From assembly GCA_034439735.1 (NCBI GenBank), contig JAWXAX010000216.1, forward strand, positions 1 through 37,364: DNA of 37,364 nt, read 5' to 3'. Source of the stretch: Rhodothermales bacterium. Lineage in GTDB: Bacteria > Bacteroidota > Rhodothermia > Rhodothermales > JAHQVL01. Shown in pieces: positions 9,540 through 19,070 of this stretch. The position numbers and the translations under genes were made by a program. Under the pieces are notes generated by a model. It was not told the origin of the DNA and did not search any database. It saw only the letters and a list, made by a program, of their open reading frames with translations. Positions within the stretch are counted from its first letter, which is position 1. Each line of letters begins with the position of its first letter.

Positions 9540-10364
9540 TCAGGGGGATTGGATCTCGCGGAGGTGGTCGCGCAGGGCCGCGGCCTCGCGCGCGGCGGCG
9601 TCGGCGAAGTCGGGTCCCGACGAGGCGTAGAGGATCTGCCGGCTGCTGTTGATCAGGTTCAGCCCATACGCGTGTCCCGCGGCGTCGAGGATTTTGCGCG
9701 GGTCGCCGCCCTGGGTGCCGACGCCGGGGATCAAGAAGGGGAGTGTGGGGCAGGCGGACCGTATCGCGTGTACGGGCACGGCATTCGTGGCGCCCACGAC
9801 GAGGCCGGCTTCACCGGGCAGGTCTTCGGCCCATTGCCGGGCGAGGAGCGCTGTGTGGAGGTAGATTTTTTTGCCCTCCGCCTCGAGCTCCTGGAGGTCG
9901 GCCCCGCCGGCATTCGAGGTGCGGGCGAGGATGATGGCCGCCTTTCCCGGGTAGGCGAGGAACGGCGCCACCGAGTCCCGCCCCATGTAGGGCGACACGG
10001 TGCAGGCGTCGAAGTCCATGGTTTCGAACACCGATCGGGCGTAAAATTGAGCGGAATTGCCGATGTCGCCCCGTTTGGCGTCGGCGATGGCTAGGGTGTC
10101 GGGAGGCAGGAGGGCACGGGTTTGCTGGAGGGCTTCCCAGCCGGCGGCGCCGTGGGCCTCGAAGAAGGCGAAGTTGATCTTGTAGGCGCAGGCATACGGG
10201 GCCGTCGCGGCGATGAGGGCGGCGTGGAAGGCCACGATGGCGTCGGCGGATGAGCGGCCGTCGCGTATGGAGGCCGGCAGACGGTCGATGTCGGGATCGA
10301 GCCCGATGCAGAGGAGGGAACGCTTGTTTTCCTGAATCTGGGTCAGTCTTTCCGAAAACGTCAT
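9540..10364 (-). CDS. pyrF: orotidine-5'-phosphate decarboxylase
   Basis: Decarboxylates OMP to UMP, the last step of de novo pyrimidine synthesis, in the cytosol. The 274-residue length and sequence match the type 2 (mycobacterial/Bacteroidota) PyrF group. The catalytic motif DAKRGD is at residues 95-100 (Lys97), with CIGLDPD near the N-terminus, YKINFAFFEAHG forming the substrate region, and the phosphate-binding segment FLIPGVGTQGGD toward the C-terminus. ATG at 10364 gives the usual N-terminus. DUF2851 follows 90 bp downstream in the same orientation. Confidence 0.97.
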   Translation of the reverse strand: MTFSERLTQIQENKRSLLCIGLDPDIDRLPASIRDGRSSADAIVAFHAALIAATAPYACAYKINFAFFEAHGAAGWEALQQTRALLPPDTLAIADAKRGDIGNSAQFYARSVFETMDFDACTVSPYMGRDSVAPFLAYPGKAAIILARTSNAGGADLQELEAEGKKIYLHTALLARQWAEDLPGEAGLVVGATNAVPVHAIRSACPTLPFLIPGVGTQGGDPRKILDAAGHAYGLNLINSSRQILYASSGPDFADAAAREAAALRDHLREIQSP

Positions 10365-10467
10365 GCGGTCGAAGCGTAGGTGGAGCCAGGATGAGGTGGG
10401 GCCGAATATACGGCGCAGGGCATCATCTTTGTCCTATCCCCGGGCGACATCGTCAGGAACCGGAGTC

Positions 10468-10497
10468 GAACTACCGGTGTAGTTCACGGGCCCGTGA
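10468..10497. promoter_or_regulatory. two adjacent dyads upstream of the acyl-CoA dehydrogenase
   Basis: GAACTACCGGTGTAGTTC (10468-10485) has two perfect 7-bp arms around a 4-base loop. It overlaps TCACGGGCCCGTGA (10484-10497), a perfect 14-bp palindrome. Both lie 50-80 bp before the start codon and upstream of no other gene on this strand. They could be operators for a dimeric repressor, as is common for fatty-acid degradation genes, or a structured leader. No regulator gene is adjacent. Confidence 0.45.
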
Positions 10498-10546
10498 GCC
10501 GGGTCACCCATTCGATACCCGCACATCCGACTGCATCTACAATTGT

Positions 10547-12571
10547 ATGGCAACTCCCAGTTTAAGCTCCATGAAACATGTTTCGGCAAAAGACCGGAAG
10601 ATGATTCAGGACATAGAGTCGATGATTGGCCCTGATCCTCGTGAGCTGGGCTTTGTAAAGAACCTGTTTGCCGGCCGGTTTCGTGAGGATCTCATTTTCC
10701 CGTACCCCCGTGAGAGCCGCGGCGAGCGCGAGAAGTGTGATCGCCTTCTGATCGAGCTGGAGGCGTACCTCAAAAACGAACACCCGGCTATCCTGATCGA
10801 TCAGGAGGAGTACGTGCCCGACTGGTGCTTCGAGCGGCTCTTTGCCCTGGGAGTAATGGGGATGACGGTGCCGGAAGTATACGGCGGGCTCGGGCTTGGG
10901 GTCACGAGCTACAACCGCGTGCTGGAGTTGATCGGCAGCTACTGTGGCTCGACAGCCGTTATTGTTTCGGCGCATCAATCGATCGGTTGCAAGGCGATCA
11001 TGTTGTTCGGGACGGAGGAGCAGAAGACCCGCTGGCTACCGCTCGTTTCGCGCACGTTCTTGTCGGCCTTCTGTTTGTCGGAGCCGGACGTAGGGTCGGA
11101 CGCCGCCGGCCAGCGCACGCGGTGCGAGCTGAGCGCGGACGGGGAGTACTACATCTTGAGCGGAGAGAAGAAGTGGAGCACATCTGGCGCCCTGGCCGGC
11201 GTGTTCACCGTGATGGCGCAGCAGGAGTATGTGGAGCCGGCCACCGGTAAGAAGCGCGAGGGGGTTACGGCGCTCATCTGCACGCCGGACATGGCGGGGA
11301 TCGACATCATCCAAAACAACCGGAGCAAGACGGGCATTCGCGGCACCTGGCAGGCGCGCATCCGCTTCCAGGACGTACGCGTTCCGCGCGAGAACCTGTT
11401 GCACCTGGAAGGCAAGGGCCTGAACGTGGCGTTGACATGCCTTAACTTCGGACGCTGCACGCTCAGCGCCGGCGTCATCGGGGCCGCTCGCCGCGCGATG
11501 AACCAGAGCGTGAAGTGGGCCCAGACGCGGTACCAGTTCGAGCGACCGCTGGCCGAGTTCGAACTCGTCCAGCAGAAAATCGCCCGGATGAGCGCGCTCA
11601 CCTACACGATGGAGTCGCTGCTTTACATGATGACGGGCATGCTCGATCGGCAGGACCGCGACATCATGGTGGAAACGGCGATCACAAAGGTGTTTTCGTC
11701 CCACATGGGCTGGGAAGTGATCGACGACGCCATGCAGATCATGGGCGGCGAGGGGTACATGACGGAAAACGAACTGGATCGGATCTGGCGCGACAACCGC
11801 ATTCACCGCATTGTCGAAGGTTCGAACGAGGTGATGCAATCCTTCATCTTCGCCTACGGCGGCAAGCAGATCGCCGAGCAGATGATGGGCATCCAGCAGG
11901 CGTTGGCCTGGGATAAGGAGGATTCCGTGATGGAGAACGTGGCCCGGATCCTGGGCAACAGCATGAAGGGGTACCTGATGCGCAAGGCGATTCCGCTGGG
12001 GGCCGAACTCTTCCTCGGCATCCGGTCCGCTCGGCCGGCGTTGCGTAGCGTGCATCCGTTGCTCGCCGCCTACGCGGATCGGCTCGCGACGATGACGCAG
12101 CGGCATGCCTACTATTTCAAAATGGCCAGCAAGTGGAATCGCGAGGAGATCGTCAAGCGCCAGGCCGTCCAGGCCCGGTTGGCGGACAACGCGATCTACC
12201 TGTTTGCCCTCTCCGCGGCGCTGTCGCGTATGGATAGCCAGATCCGGGGCGGAGACTACGGCCTCGGCTACGAACGCGACAAGGCGGCGCTGGCCCACGC
12301 GTTTGATCTCTTCGAGCAGACGTTCTACCGTAACATCGGCGAACTCCGCCACAACACGGACGTCAGCATGCGGAAGGCATCCGATGCGGCCCGCCGGTAT
12401 AACGATAGCCTGCCCAACAGCGACTTCTACATCCCCGAGTCGTCCCCGACAGCCGCCGGCACGGGCAAGACGCCCCCGGTCGAACACGTCAAACAGTTCC
12501 CGGGAGGTACAGACGCCACAGGTGGTGACGGAGCCCTGGGCGAGGCGCCGGCGAAAGAGTTTAAGGTTTAA
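10547..12571 (+). CDS. acyl-CoA dehydrogenase, large VLCAD/ACAD9-like form
   Basis: FAD-dependent first step of fatty-acid beta-oxidation, forming trans-2-enoyl-CoA and passing electrons to ETF. 674 residues, longer than the usual 380-400 because of a C-terminal helical extension, as in very-long-chain acyl-CoA dehydrogenases. Domains in order: N-terminal helical (about 65-180, with GVMGMTVPEVYGGLGLG), middle beta (about 185-290, with AFCLSEPDVGSDAAG), C-terminal helical (about 300-450), then the extension to about 640. The catalytic glutamate is present as Glu424 in HRIVEGSNEVMQ. The QIMGGEGYM motif that binds FAD is also present. The start is ATG 10547; the upstream extension has no domain and contains the dyads. 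Its last codons (FKV then stop) lie inside the heptamer repeat at 12563. The substrate range is inferred only. Confidence 0.93.
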   Translation: MATPSLSSMKHVSAKDRKMIQDIESMIGPDPRELGFVKNLFAGRFREDLIFPYPRESRGEREKCDRLLIELEAYLKNEHPAILIDQEEYVPDWCFERLFALGVMGMTVPEVYGGLGLGVTSYNRVLELIGSYCGSTAVIVSAHQSIGCKAIMLFGTEEQKTRWLPLVSRTFLSAFCLSEPDVGSDAAGQRTRCELSADGEYYILSGEKKWSTSGALAGVFTVMAQQEYVEPATGKKREGVTALICTPDMAGIDIIQNNRSKTGIRGTWQARIRFQDVRVPRENLLHLEGKGLNVALTCLNFGRCTLSAGVIGAARRAMNQSVKWAQTRYQFERPLAEFELVQQKIARMSALTYTMESLLYMMTGMLDRQDRDIMVETAITKVFSSHMGWEVIDDAMQIMGGEGYMTENELDRIWRDNRIHRIVEGSNEVMQSFIFAYGGKQIAEQMMGIQQALAWDKEDSVMENVARILGNSMKGYLMRKAIPLGAELFLGIRSARPALRSVHPLLAAYADRLATMTQRHAYYFKMASKWNREEIVKRQAVQARLADNAIYLFALSAALSRMDSQIRGGDYGLGYERDKAALAHAFDLFEQTFYRNIGELRHNTDVSMRKASDAARRYNDSLPNSDFYIPESSPTAAGTGKTPPVEHVKQFPGGTDATGGDGALGEAPAKEFKV

Positions 12572-12866
12572 GGTTCGAGGTTTAAGGGAGGCACCTTATA
12601 CCTTGAGAAACTGTTGGGAAATGCACTCAAAGATTAAAAGCCAGTCATTGTGCCTGCACTGAGCGAAGCCGAAGTGAGCCGATGGGGTGTTACATCCCAC
12701 CGTGTCGAACAACCCTTCAGAACGACCGCTCTGCGAATATACAAGGGTGCGGTCGGCTGTGAGGTCCTTCGACACGGCCCGATTACCATCGGACCGGCTC
12801 AGGATGACCCCCTTCGAGTGACTCAGGCGAATTTCATCAGTTTCTGAACCTTAACCCTTGAACCCC
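12563..12866. repeat. 304-bp nested foldback element with heptamer repeats at both ends
   Basis: The left end has heptamers aaggttt, aaggttc, gaggttt (12563-12583). The right end has gaacctt, aaccctt, gaacccc (12846-12866), the same RAGGKTY-type unit in inverse orientation. Between them, inverted pairs nest in order: AGAAACTG 12606-12613 with 12838-12845; TGAGCC 12675-12680 with 12796-12801; CCGATGG 12679-12685 with 12786-12792; CCGTGTCGAA 12700-12709 with 12768-12777; CGACCGC 12723-12729 with 12749-12755. It fills the gap between convergent genes exactly, contains the stop codon of the acyl-CoA dehydrogenase, and ends one base before the stop of the WG gene. No plausible gene lies inside. 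It could be a MITE-like or REP-like dispersed element, or a structured bidirectional terminator. Confidence 0.8.
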
Positions 12867-12867
12867 C

Positions 12868-13944
12868 TCATCTCGTCGGATACCAGACGTACTTGCCGTC
12901 TCGGCCGAGGTACCCGATGTTGGTGATGATGTTATTCTCGTTATTCGGGTCGCGGAGCTCGATGGTGACCTGGGCGAGGCCTTTTTGGAAAGGCAGCGCT
13001 TCGTCGAAGTCGGGCTGGGCGATGACATTGCCAGACTTGTCGATGTATCCCCAGAACCCGTCGATCAGCACCGCGGCACGGCCTTCCGAGAAGGGGCGGG
13101 CATTTTCGAACTGGGGTTCGATAACCATCCGGCCGGACTTATCCGCGTAGCCCCACGTGTTGGTATTTTCGCGTGCGGCGACGAGGCCTTCGCTGAAATT
13201 GCCGGCTTCGATATACTTAGGCGGTATCTTCGCGCTGTTGCTCGGGTCGATGAAGCCCCAGCTGTCGCTGATCTTGATAGCCGCGAGGCCGTCCGAAAAG
13301 CTGCGGGCTTCGCTGTACTGGAAGTCGACTGCCATGTTGCCGTTTTCATCGATAAACCCGTACTGGTTGGTATTGAAGTCGATCACCAGGGCGCGGCCAT
13401 CTTGAAAGTCGTTGCTGGCCGACTCGAATTCCGTCAGATCGGGGGTTTCGAGGGTGCGAATCACGTTGCCCCGAGTGTCGATGTATTCCCACTGAAACTC
13501 CGCGTCGCGCACGAAGGCGCGGCCGTTTTCAAAGCTGTACGCGGCCGTGTACTGGGGATTGATGGCGAAGGCGCCGGAGCGGTTCACGAAGCCCCAACGG
13601 CCATCTACCTGTACGGCGGCAAAGCCTTCCGTAAACGGACGCCCGTCCTGGAAGCGGGGTTCGATGACGTATTTGCCTTCCGGATCGATGTAGCCGACGT
13701 TGCCTTCGCGGATTCGCGCCAGCCCATCTTCGAATTCACGCGCGGCATCGAACGTGGGTTCGATGATGATCCGGCCGTTTTCGTTGATATACCCCCAGCT
13801 GCCGTCGATGCGGACCGGGAAAAGGTTGACGCCGTCGTTTTGTTCGGACTCGTCGTCGGAAGTGAGGCCGCCGATGAAGTCGCAGCCCGAAAGGGTGGCC
13901 GAGAAGGCTGCGAGGGCGAGGAGGGTACACAGGAAAGATTTCAT
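12868..13944 (-). CDS. WG-repeat lipoprotein (copy 1)
   Basis: 358 residues from ATG 13944. A signal sequence ends in lipobox LSGC (Cys about residue 21), followed by an acidic linker (DDESEQND). The rest is eight or nine WG repeats of about 35-40 residues with the pattern WGYIN..G...I.P.F..A..F..GLA, for example at VRIDGSWGYINENG and DGRWGFVNRSG. It ends GKYVWYPTR. WG repeats form beta-rich domains thought to mediate binding; no catalytic function is known. It is the last gene of the minus-strand block and 39 bp after its paralogue. The acidic residues after the Cys resemble Bacteroidota lipoprotein surface-export signals, which is inference. Confidence 0.88.
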   Translation of the reverse strand: MKSFLCTLLALAAFSATLSGCDFIGGLTSDDESEQNDGVNLFPVRIDGSWGYINENGRIIIEPTFDAAREFEDGLARIREGNVGYIDPEGKYVIEPRFQDGRPFTEGFAAVQVDGRWGFVNRSGAFAINPQYTAAYSFENGRAFVRDAEFQWEYIDTRGNVIRTLETPDLTEFESASNDFQDGRALVIDFNTNQYGFIDENGNMAVDFQYSEARSFSDGLAAIKISDSWGFIDPSNSAKIPPKYIEAGNFSEGLVAARENTNTWGYADKSGRMVIEPQFENARPFSEGRAAVLIDGFWGYIDKSGNVIAQPDFDEALPFQKGLAQVTIELRDPNNENNIITNIGYLGRDGKYVWYPTR

Positions 13945-13983
13945 ACGATTCTGCTAAATAGTGCCGCGAGCCAGACGCTGCGA

Positions 13984-15051
13984 TTAATTCATCGGGTACC
14001 AGACGTACTTGCCGGCCCGATCGATATAGCCAACACGCGGATCAACATTCACGTCGCCAAGCAGGACCCGCGCGAGGCCCCCCTTGAAGGGCTCCGCGGC
14101 GTCGAAATTCCGCTCCATGGCCACACGGCCTGTCGCCTTGCTGACATACGTCCAGTCGCTATTGATACGGACGGCCGCCATGCCCTCGGAGAATGGCTGA
14201 GCTTCGCTAAACTCGCCGAAGACGACGACTTCCCCTCGTTTGTTGATGAACTCGAAGCCGTCGTTGATCTCGACTACCGCCAGTCCTTCGGAAAACGCCT
14301 CGGCGCTGCCAAAACGGGGCGAGATGATCGGATTGCCGCGGGTATCGAGATATCCCCAGCCTTCACCGGTTTCGAACGGCGCGTAGCCATCGACGAAGTC
14401 GCCGAGCACCTGGACGGTCAGATCGGGGCTGATGGCCGTATCACCGTTTTTGCTGATATAGATCCAGCCGCTCAGGCCTTCCACGGCGGAGAGCCCATCC
14501 GAAAACGGCCGGGCATCGCTGTAGCTGGGGTCGATAACCATCTCCCCTGAACGATTGATGAATCCCCAGCGGGTGTCGGTACGGACGGCGGCGAGGCCTT
14601 CGGCGAACGGTTGCGAAAGCTCGTACGTGGGCGGGATGACCGTCGTGCCTTCCTTATTGATGAACCCGTAGAGATCATCAAGCGCGGTCCCGCGGACAAA
14701 CGCGAGCCCTTCAGAGAAGCGGCCGGCAACCTGGTATTGCGGTTGCACCACCAAGGTGCCGTTGCGGTTGACGTACCCCCATACACTGCCCAACTGGACG
14801 GCGGCCATGTCCTCCGAAAAGTCGCGGGCGTTATCGTACGCCGGCAGGATGACGATCCGGCCGAGTCCGTTGATGTATCCCCACAACCCGTCGATACGGA
14901 CCGGGTACAGTTCATTCGGATTGCCTTCGAGGGAAGCCTCGTCTGATTCTTCAAACAGATCGCACCCGCTGAAAGCGAGGCTGCCGAGGCAGAGGAACGT
15001 GGTGACGAGCACCGCGCTCGTCACCACGTTTTTCGTGATTCCTGATTTCAT
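13984..15051 (-). CDS. WG-repeat lipoprotein (copy 2)
   Basis: 355 residues from ATG 15051. The signal sequence ends in lipobox FSGC (Cys about residue 30), then an acidic linker (EESDEASLEGN). About nine WG repeats follow, starting VRIDGLWGYINGLG and including TRWGFINRSG and EGWGYLDTRG, and ending VGYIDRAGKYVWYPMN. Its start and end closely resemble copy 1, so the pair is a tandem duplication, but the middle repeats have diverged: several Trp-Gly positions became WI, FE or WT. It lies 41 bp downstream of the DUF1501 gene on the same strand. Likely envelope-anchored; role unknown. Confidence 0.88.
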   Translation of the reverse strand: MKSGITKNVVTSAVLVTTFLCLGSLAFSGCDLFEESDEASLEGNPNELYPVRIDGLWGYINGLGRIVILPAYDNARDFSEDMAAVQLGSVWGYVNRNGTLVVQPQYQVAGRFSEGLAFVRGTALDDLYGFINKEGTTVIPPTYELSQPFAEGLAAVRTDTRWGFINRSGEMVIDPSYSDARPFSDGLSAVEGLSGWIYISKNGDTAISPDLTVQVLGDFVDGYAPFETGEGWGYLDTRGNPIISPRFGSAEAFSEGLAVVEINDGFEFINKRGEVVVFGEFSEAQPFSEGMAAVRINSDWTYVSKATGRVAMERNFDAAEPFKGGLARVLLGDVNVDPRVGYIDRAGKYVWYPMN

Positions 15052-15092
15052 GATTACAGCTAGATGGAACGTAGGAACAGACCTCTGGGTCG

Positions 15093-16781
15093 TTATTTCA
15101 TGAAGACCATCGACCGTGATTGCGCACCGTCGGGGGTTTTAAGCGTGTAGAAATAGGTCCCGCTCGGCATGCGCCCGCCTTCGAAGTCGATCTGATGCGT
15201 GCCTGCAGCCTGGTAGGCGTCCACGAGGGTGCGGACGAGCCGTCCTTGAGCGTCGAATACCTGCAGCGTGACGCGGCTCGGTTGGTTGAGGGTGTAGCCG
15301 ATATTCGTCGTCGGGTTGAATGGGTTGGGATAGTTCTGGGAGAGCTGGAACGCGGCCGGCACCGGCGTCGGCTCGTTGCTCACCTGGACCTTGCTTCCGA
15401 TGATGTCCATGCGGGGCACAGCCATGCCGAGCATAGCGTCCACATCCGCAGGAGGCATGCCGAACCAGTCCTGGAGGATGGAGGCATACACCGAGCGGAA
15501 ATCGGTCGTGGGCTCGGGGTCGCCGCCGTAGAGCTGGGTGACGAGGTCGGATTGCGAACCGTAGACGCCGCGTTTCAGGCCGGGGCCGAACATGAGCATC
15601 GAGGCGCCGGCGCCATGGTCGGTGCCGCGCGATCCGTTTTCGCCGAGCGTGCGGCCAAACTCGGAATAGGTCATCGTCAGGACTTTCTGGTCGAGACCGT
15701 CCACCGCGAGGTCCTGGTAGAAGGCCGCCACGGAGTCCGCGATGGACCGCCAGCGATCGGCGTATTGGCCGGTGGCGCCGCCCTGGTTCGAGTGCGTGTC
15801 GAATCCGCCGATGGAGACGGAGATGACCTTGGCGCCCAGTCCGCCGCGGATGAGGCGGGCGGCGGCGGACATGTTGTCGCCGAAGCCGTTCGGGTAGGTG
15901 CCGGCCAGGTTGGTGCCGGCGTTAGCGGCGCGCTGGATGGACGACACATAACTCAACGCGGCGTTGGCGACGGCGCGTGCGTACTTGAGCGGCCGGCCGT
16001 AGGCCACGTTGTCGACTCGGGCATCGGTGGCGTCGTAGAGGCCGCGTCGGGCGATCTCTTCGATGAACTGGGCGTCGCCCAGGCTCACACCGAGGTTGCC
16101 GAGGTTGCTCTGGAACAGCGATACCGGTCCGCCGATGAGGACGGCCAGCGGGTGGTCGAGCGGCTGTCCGATGGTATCGAGCACATCCTCGACATACCGG
16201 CCCCATACGCCGGACGTGTAATTGACGTTGCCGCTGCCGATGATGCTGCCGCTGCCCGTGGCCCAGTTGACGGTGCCTTCGAAGTGCGACCGGGTCGAGC
16301 TGCGGTAGCCGGTGTTCAGTACGGCCGCGAGGCGGTTGTTATTCCACAGGTTCGTCAGGCTCGCCATGGCCGGGTGCAGGCCGTGGTCATTCTCCAGCGG
16401 CAAAACCTGGCTTCGTGGGATCGCTATCGTCGGGCGAACGCGATAATATTCGTCGATCTCGTAGGGGACGACCGTGTTGAGGGCGTCGTTGCCGCCGTTG
16501 AGCTGGATGAGCACCAGGATGCGGTCCACATCCGCGCTCTGGATGGCCTGGAGGATGGGTGCATGCCCGAAGGCCGTGACCGGGCTTCCGTTAAGCATGA
16601 CCGAGGCGCCGGCGACGCCCATCCCGAGGCGGGTGAGGAAGTCGCGACGCGACCACTTGAGGTGGTCCTGCGTGTGGGCGGCGCCATCCTCGAGCCGGGC
16701 GCCGCGGCGGCCCCCTTCGGCTTCGGTATGGCCGTGGCCTTCGTGCCCCTGGTGATCGTGGTGATTGCAATGCTCGTGCAT
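15093..16781 (-). CDS. DUF1501 secreted protein with His-rich leader, Tat motif and T9SS sorting domain
   Basis: 562 residues from ATG 16781. Residues 1-18 contain eight His and one Cys (MHEHCNHHDHQGHEGHGH). SRRDFL at 44-49 and a short hydrophobic stretch (LGMGVAGASVML) form a twin-arginine-like signal. The DUF1501 domain (sulfatase/alkaline-phosphatase-like fold) follows, with LIQLNGGNDALNTVVPY, DFRSVYASILQDWFG and an FGRTLGENGSRGTDHGAG segment holding conserved Asp/His. The last 80 or so residues are a type IX secretion sorting domain beginning SQNYPNPFNPTT and ending FMK. The frame is open far upstream (to 17225), but that would overlap the DUF1800 gene. It lies 59 bp after DUF1800, with which DUF1501 proteins are commonly paired. 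Enzymatic activity is unproven. Confidence 0.92.
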   Translation of the reverse strand: MHEHCNHHDHQGHEGHGHTEAEGGRRGARLEDGAAHTQDHLKWSRRDFLTRLGMGVAGASVMLNGSPVTAFGHAPILQAIQSADVDRILVLIQLNGGNDALNTVVPYEIDEYYRVRPTIAIPRSQVLPLENDHGLHPAMASLTNLWNNNRLAAVLNTGYRSSTRSHFEGTVNWATGSGSIIGSGNVNYTSGVWGRYVEDVLDTIGQPLDHPLAVLIGGPVSLFQSNLGNLGVSLGDAQFIEEIARRGLYDATDARVDNVAYGRPLKYARAVANAALSYVSSIQRAANAGTNLAGTYPNGFGDNMSAAARLIRGGLGAKVISVSIGGFDTHSNQGGATGQYADRWRSIADSVAAFYQDLAVDGLDQKVLTMTYSEFGRTLGENGSRGTDHGAGASMLMFGPGLKRGVYGSQSDLVTQLYGGDPEPTTDFRSVYASILQDWFGMPPADVDAMLGMAVPRMDIIGSKVQVSNEPTPVPAAFQLSQNYPNPFNPTTNIGYTLNQPSRVTLQVFDAQGRLVRTLVDAYQAAGTHQIDFEGGRMPSGTYFYTLKTPDGAQSRSMVFMK

Positions 16782-16840
16782 GGGTATACCTGAAAAATGA
16801 ATTCCGTTTCTTGAGGCGAAGAAAGGGGGCCCAGGCAACG

Positions 16841-18463
<1,623 letters not shown>

Positions 18464-19070
18464 GGTTGTCCCAAAAGGTGCTTTCAAACCGAGCGGAGTG
18501 TGCGAAAGCCTCTGCGCGAGCGGGGAGGGACTCACCTGGGGGAGAGAGGCGTCTGAGGGCTATATCGTCTCTTCCACGTACTGTGCCAAACACAATCGGG
18601 CCCGGCATAACGCGTCCAGCCACCCCGGCGGGGCCAGCCTCCCGTTACCCGATAAAATACATCCGTTTCGTTTCTACCTGAAAGGGCCTGGAAACGCCTG
18701 CAAGTGGCAAAATCGTAGGCTTTCTCCCGGTTTTGAGCGGATAGCCGCGTTGGTGTTACCCCCCGTAGGACGCCTTTTTTGTCACTTCGCCGAGCCTTAC
18801 ATCCGCTGGTCTGTCGCCTGCGCAAGGTGAGTAATGGCGCGACGTGGGGTTATTTTGTGCGTGATCCCGGAAGGATCGAGGAGGCCGCAATCCCGGGTCC
18901 CAGAGTGAGCACGGGAATGATACATGGCAATTCGCTTGCCGAAACCCCCCAAAAACAGCCCGATCGTATCACGGGCGCTCGATAGGCGTGTGCGTTTTAG
19001 ACTGGCCCGGCATCAACTCGTCGATGTCGGGACGGGGAGGAGTGTCCCGGACGGCTGTGTGTGCGTGAAA
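18464..19070. other. 607-bp non-coding interval
   Basis: No open frame here resembles a protein; the longer frames on both strands look like chance frames in GC-rich DNA. The interval carries the serS terminator (18951-18976) and a second small hairpin, CGGGAC 19028-19033 with GTCCCG 19044-19049, just after the serS stop. The leftmost 300 bp should hold the promoter of the DUF1800-DUF1501-WG block, but I see no convincing -35/-10 or TAnnTTTG box. No tRNA or riboswitch was recognised. Confidence 0.5.
18951..18976 (-). terminator. rho-independent terminator after serS
   Basis: On the minus strand GCCCG, a 9-base loop and CGGGC (18976-18958) are followed by TG and five T (18955-18951). It lies about 95 bp after the serS stop codon in the right orientation. 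Confidence 0.6.

Follow-up and report, generated by a model that had tools for sequence, protein, structure and literature searches.

REP elements are found near stop codons. Among the other described systems closest to the locus analyzed here, the IS1031 subgroup of the IS5 family is characterized by a TNA target, a duplication that is exclusively of 3 bp and an end that starts with GAACCTGT (PMC12016507), and the TAACTGA arrays of Beggiatoaceae, Cyanobacteria and Bacteroidetes comprise 169 sets, formed by direct repeats that in most cases precede start codons, along with one indirect repeat (PMC4679880). The present locus is a foldback composed of three dispersed repeat families, one inside another: a heptamer hairpin (family A), a MITE (family B) and a palindrome (family C). 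The reading to which we assign a probability of roughly 85% is that a heptamer hairpin was later split by an IS5/IS1031-type MITE carrying a REP-like palindrome, and it is favored because of the target duplications, the dispersed copies of the parts and the restoration of the hairpin when the MITE is removed.

The window is the whole stretch of 37,364 nucleotides that was analyzed, one of the 304 contigs of a draft genome of 5.1 Mb (G000), an assembly that breaks at repeats. Judged by the dehydrogenase next to the structure, its closest named relatives belong to the Rhodothermales-type Bacteroidota. In the window, the gene of an acyl-CoA dehydrogenase (10250-12571, + strand), whose product ends in AKEFKV within a heptamer array, converged with that of a WG-repeat protein (12868-13944, − strand). 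The nested foldback occupied the gap between their stops, and the stop of the WG-repeat gene (12868-12870) adjoined the far end of the heptamer hairpin. Folding of the strand across this structure yielded −127 kcal/mol, with z = −5.9 relative to dinucleotide shuffles, and none of the 100 shuffles folded as well. Every inverted pair named in the initial annotation was found at its place and in nested order, including the perfect 10-bp pair formed by CCGTGTCGAA (12700-12709) with TTCGACACGG, in the arms 12700-12714/12763-12777, and the pair AGAAACTG/CAGTTTCT, in the arms 12603-12616/12835-12848. Equally confirmed were the arrays of a 7-bp unit in opposite orientation at both ends of the foldback (12559-12576/12846-12863) and the position of the dehydrogenase stop, TAA at 12569-12571, within the left array. 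On the − strand, the region 12868-18535 contained a pair of WG-repeat genes in tandem, after which came genes for DUF1501 (with a Por secretion tail) and DUF1800 proteins.

A whole-genome search with the region, in which separate parts matched separate places, was the basis for distinguishing GGTTYRA heptamer arrays (A), elements with the ends TTNAGAAACTGTTGRGATTT (B) and palindromes of the form GTCAT...ATGAC (C). The outer repeat was an inverted GGTTYRA array, located at 12559-12606 and 12848-12864. Its left, G-rich arm, GTTTAAGGTTTAAGGTTCGAGGTTTAAGG (12559-12587, + strand), contained the F-K-V codons and the stop of the dehydrogenase. In the fold of the empty site, this arm was followed by the original loop, GAGGCA (12588-12593), and by the two halves of the right arm on the − strand, the loop-proximal CCTTATACCTTGA (12594-12606) and the loop-distal ACCTTAACCCTTGAACC (12848-12864). 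Both halves were separated by an insertion of 241 bp, that is, 238 bp plus a 3-bp duplication. The inserted MITE (12607-12844) lacked a transposase, had IS5/IS1031-type ends (GAAACTGTTGGG.../...CATCAGTTTC) and was bounded by terminal inverted repeats, GAAACTGTTGGGAAAT on the left (12607-12622, + strand) and the reverse complement GAAACTGATGAAATTC on the right (12829-12844, − strand). The target, T/TGA/A, was duplicated as TGA at 12604-12606 and TGA at 12845-12847. When 12607-12844 and one TGA were deleted in silico, the heptamer hairpin became continuous again (−39.0 kcal/mol), and removal of the MITE from a second locus (L099/L016) likewise restored an uninterrupted heptamer hairpin, of −50.1 kcal/mol. 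All of the inverted pairs nest, therefore, because the MITE interrupts the right arm of a heptamer hairpin older than itself.

These results bear on the initial description of the region as a single foldback, whose geometry was correct; its coherence as one element was not, since three separate repeat families nest in it. Moreover, the left array is the partner of the split right arm (12594-12606 and 12848-12864). A single mobile foldback spanning 12563-12866, with the heptamer arrays as terminal repeats, would explain the arrays on both sides and the identical arrangement of locus L099. Against it, many loci had a heptamer hairpin with no MITE and many others a MITE with no arrays, the boundary of the TNA duplication lay inside the arrays, and removal of the insertion rejoined the arm in register. 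The reading as one element was refuted by the independent copies and the target duplications, and we consider it highly improbable. As for the composite reading, the heptamer hairpin would have formed or inserted between the convergent genes after the split from the sister genera, and would have taken over the final codons and the stop of the acyl-CoA dehydrogenase. An IS5/IS1031-type MITE with a REP-like interior would then have jumped into the right arm at TTGAA, duplicating TGA. The MITE part is ordinary, yet it accounts for the puzzling nested geometry.

The 20-base end of family B gave 82 matches in the genome with up to three mismatches and none with the reversed control, and about 45 or more copies of the family were present in G000. 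The census of families A and B was carried out on a sample of 766 kb of this genome, enriched for places with these repeats. It contained 26 paired B copies of 79 to 440 bp, the commonest size being 150. Outside GAAACTG...CAGTTTC, TNA was found on both sides in 24 of the 26, and the two flanking trinucleotides were identical in 21 of these 24, a number never reached in 100,000 shuffles (expected, 6.9). The context T/TNA/A was observed for 21/26 paired copies. It was not necessary to suppose that the MITE seeks out heptamer arrays, since these contained 211 of the 666 intergenic TTNAA sites of the array-enriched sample. Separately, about ten contigs of G000 (L008, L010-L013, L015, L018, L020, L021, L025) ended inside another multicopy repeat, starting with (C)TAAGTATCATCACGGTAAATCC, in which a decayed heptamer stretch was followed by a family-B left end; this composite has seemingly spread as a unit.

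Related elements were detected elsewhere in the order. At least six other genomes contained MITEs bearing GAGACTGTTTTGATTT or GAACCTGTTTTGATTT at their ends and flanked by TNA duplications, most of them perfect. In addition, three intact insertion sequences were found there: one (L224) with a 275-aa transposase, a TGA duplication and ends nearly those of family B (GAAACCGTTGAGGAATT/GAAACTGTTGAGGAATT), a second (L233) of 922 bp with a TCA duplication and B-like ends, and a third (L248) with B-like ends and a TAA duplication. The transposases of L224 and L233 matched the IS5 model NF033580 far over its cut-off. The proposal of a MITE-like mobile repeat thus stands for 12607-12844, whose status as a MITE is supported by shared terminal inverted repeats, the 3-bp TNA duplication, its multiple copies and ends like those of related autonomous IS5 elements; it does not extend to the whole foldback, the heptamers being a separate and commoner family. 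The MITE is a further member of a familiar type. Like members of the IS1031 subgroup such as ISLrh (PMC12016507), it has a TNA target, a 3-bp duplication and ends starting GAAC/GAGAC/GAAAC-CTGT, and the likeness extends to its relatives, which include autonomous elements of the same size class (~0.9 kb) with an IS5 transposase. Unlike them, the copy in the window lacks a transposase and carries an apparently swappable REP-like palindrome as its interior, and no autonomous partner with matching ends was found for it in G000. Only one PF01609 transposase was detected in G000, a draft of 304 contigs broken at repeats, and its ends differed (GAGCCTATCCGAAAACC, TTA duplication); no autonomous insertion sequence with GAAACTGTTGAG ends was found in this draft assembly. 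The autonomous partner of family B is either absent from G000 or was lost in the assembly, and B would most likely have been mobilized in trans by an IS5-family transposase.

The interior of the MITE in the window consisted of a REP-like palindrome, GTCATTG...GGATGAC, with side hairpins (12644-12808), which included the 10-bp pair and a CGATGG/CCATCGG pair. In most other paired B copies of the sample, the palindrome at that junction was not the one of the window, and the family-B interior appears to be swappable, as judged from the sequences compared. Between the constant ends, interiors joined at GTCAT...ATGAC were seen as GTCATCCCCGCG..., GTCATCCCCCGG..., GTCGTCTTCC... and the type of the window. 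The region 12644-12808 had weak dispersed relatives in G000, both as single halves (L004, L005, L007) and as inverted pairs (L017, L019), and the GTCATCC foot was about seven times commoner in the sample than its reversed control (318 matches versus 47). The GTCAT...ATGAC palindromes, which the initial annotation likened to dispersed palindromes of other genomes, thus proved to be dispersed in G000.

In comparison with REP/BIME and REPIN sequences (PMC3116915), the locus shares dispersed extragenic palindromes near gene 3′ ends and the occurrence of GTCAT...ATGAC as single and inverted halves. It differs in that heptamers make up the outer hairpin, which has no conserved foot, and in that no REP-associated transposase was found linked to either palindrome. 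No matching inverted pair of palindromes was seen around either of the two Y1_Tnp genes of G000, and nothing convincing in favor of a RAYT link of the inner palindrome lay beside these genes. At L062 (C229:3109-3468 of G000), the 3′ end of a RAYT-like Y1-type transposase gene ran into short direct repeats encoding CRRHMPASHAGVT.

Family A was by far not confined to the window. GGTTYRA arrays were found genome-wide in G000 as hairpins of ~60-70 bp, and an 18-base array pattern gave 285 matches in this genome, versus 3 for the reversed-pattern control. The number of units and the loop varied freely, no fixed ends were present, and the mean stability was −29.6 kcal/mol. In G000 the G-rich arm came first in 36 pairs, the reverse order being observed in 2. 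When a cluster was counted as lying at a stop if a long reading frame ended between −25 and +10 nt from its edge, this applied to 26 of the 30 clusters of G000 and to 11 of the 13 of G001, a genome from a second genus (random positions, 13% and 6%, respectively). Random placement within the same gaps of G000 would put 13.0 of 33 near a stop, and 25 of 33 were observed there. The gene contexts, assigned with a crude gene caller (n = 35), were 22 tandem, 11 convergent and 2 divergent. A repeat that lies genome-wide at exact gene ends and fills convergent gaps from stop to stop is unusual. Covariation between the arms beyond the heptamer consensus was weak (0.853 versus 0.834 ± 0.009 with shuffled partners), and the claim that it proves structural selection was dropped.

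Within the order, G000 and G001 alone had abundant arrays, and a few matches were obtained in G002, of the same family. Across the phylum, 36 of the 395 Bacteroidota genomes sampled had at least one GGTTYRA array, in some cases in the form of long tandem arrays; a restriction to one family was discarded on account of these sporadic occurrences, and uniqueness is not claimed. The same distribution, together with the GGARYTT-type heptamer arrays found in two further genomes of the order, would fit a neutral origin, in which simple repeats expand by slippage and give rise to hairpins through template switching at replication forks. Such growth does not predict the seating at stops (26/30 and 11/13) or the 36-to-2 arm order, and we regard this explanation as doubtful. 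The described heptamers nearest to family A, the TAACTGA arrays (PMC4679880), are likewise intergenic, similar in number and sporadic across lineages, and some of them overlap stops. The GGTTYRA arrays are unlike them in being inverted, hairpin-forming, seated at stop codons and variable in unit, and did not show the tandem, direct arrangement at start codons.

The stop codon of several genes lay inside the array, at distances of −7, −14 and −21. Four of 516 proteins ended in FKV, against an expectation of 0.04, and all four endings were encoded by heptamers. These were the acyl-CoA dehydrogenase of the window, two convergent neighbors in L098 and one protein in L156, so that C-termini of unrelated proteins were overwritten with identical residues. 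At L098 15610-17437 (contig C220 of G000), one heptamer hairpin supplied the stops of two unrelated convergent genes, whose products both ended in RFKV. The homologues in sister genera, those of the dehydrogenase included, had unrelated tails. The proposed rewriting of the last residues of the dehydrogenase was upheld by its heptamer-encoded FKV and stop, by the same ending in three unrelated proteins and by the differing tails of its homologues, with one correction: the agent was the heptamer hairpin and not the MITE. The functional effect of the new tail is probably small, because the tails of this protein vary anyway.

None of the 22 orthologous gene ends compared in the sister genera, G001 and G002, bore a heptamer hairpin, and the two dehydrogenase orthologues likewise lacked one. 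A simple detector called a hairpin with a U-tract, the canonical intrinsic terminator, at 10 of the 24 orthologous ends examined. The hairpins at these genes therefore arose in the G000 lineage, at positions often held by terminators. The G+C content was 63% in G000, 48% in G001 and 51% in G002, a difference that may matter for the type of terminator. In G000 itself, array-bearing and array-free genes showed no clear difference in canonical terminators, of which the detector calls few in this genome.

The possibility that the hairpins are a transposable element specific for stop codons, with no host function, was also weighed. Their dispersal, at different loci in two genera, and the takeover of stops and final codons agree with it. 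It is nevertheless considered unlikely, given the lack of fixed ends, the variable unit number and loop, the absence of any identified enzyme or target duplication, and a preference for the stop side over the start side (2/35 divergent) that is equally expected from a function at the 3′ end. It is conceivable, though less likely than not, that the heptamer hairpins are lineage-specific, recurrently acquired gene-end elements which would provide the stop and the last residues and replace U-tract terminators, the heptamer differing by Rhodothermales lineage.

Regarding the function of these hairpins, which are best read as recurrently acquired, a role at the 3′ end of the transcript, as a terminator or a 3′ stabilizer, is the most likely one, with about even odds. 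Four features favor it: the placement, the strength of the fold, the symmetrical arrangement in convergent gaps and the fact that the hairpins take positions which terminators occupy. A strong RNA hairpin, formed from either strand, would end transcription or protect both convergent mRNAs. As in intrinsic (Rho-independent) terminators, stable hairpins were located directly past stops and filled convergent gaps; unlike these, they begin at or before the stop codon and are built of heptamers. They also lack a U-tract, TTTT occurring within 10 nt in only 7 of 72 hairpin flanks, and so are not canonical intrinsic terminators. The alternative proposal of a structured RNA or terminator thus found no Rfam family matching the window above the gathering score and no U-tract, and retained plausibility as a 3′-end role from a position where relatives often have intrinsic terminators. 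If the hairpins do end transcription with no U-tract, they would be a repeat-derived class of terminators whose birth can be dated through comparison of the sister genera; otherwise, they would be a repeat with a striking affinity for stop codons, also unexplained.

No inverted, hairpin-forming, stop-seated version of a heptamer repeat, nor any match to the heptamer strings, was found in the literature searched, which left out most subscription journals, and papers containing GTCATCCTGAGC were seemingly unrelated according to their titles and abstracts. The stop-codon heptamer hairpin family thus appears to be undescribed so far. In two genomes from other families of the order, G007 and G063 (L281, L287, L288, L291), inverted heptamer hairpins with the unit GGARYTT/TTCCAAG were observed. 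Their arm order was the opposite and at least one of them lay beside a stop codon, a possible parallel to the GGTTYRA class.
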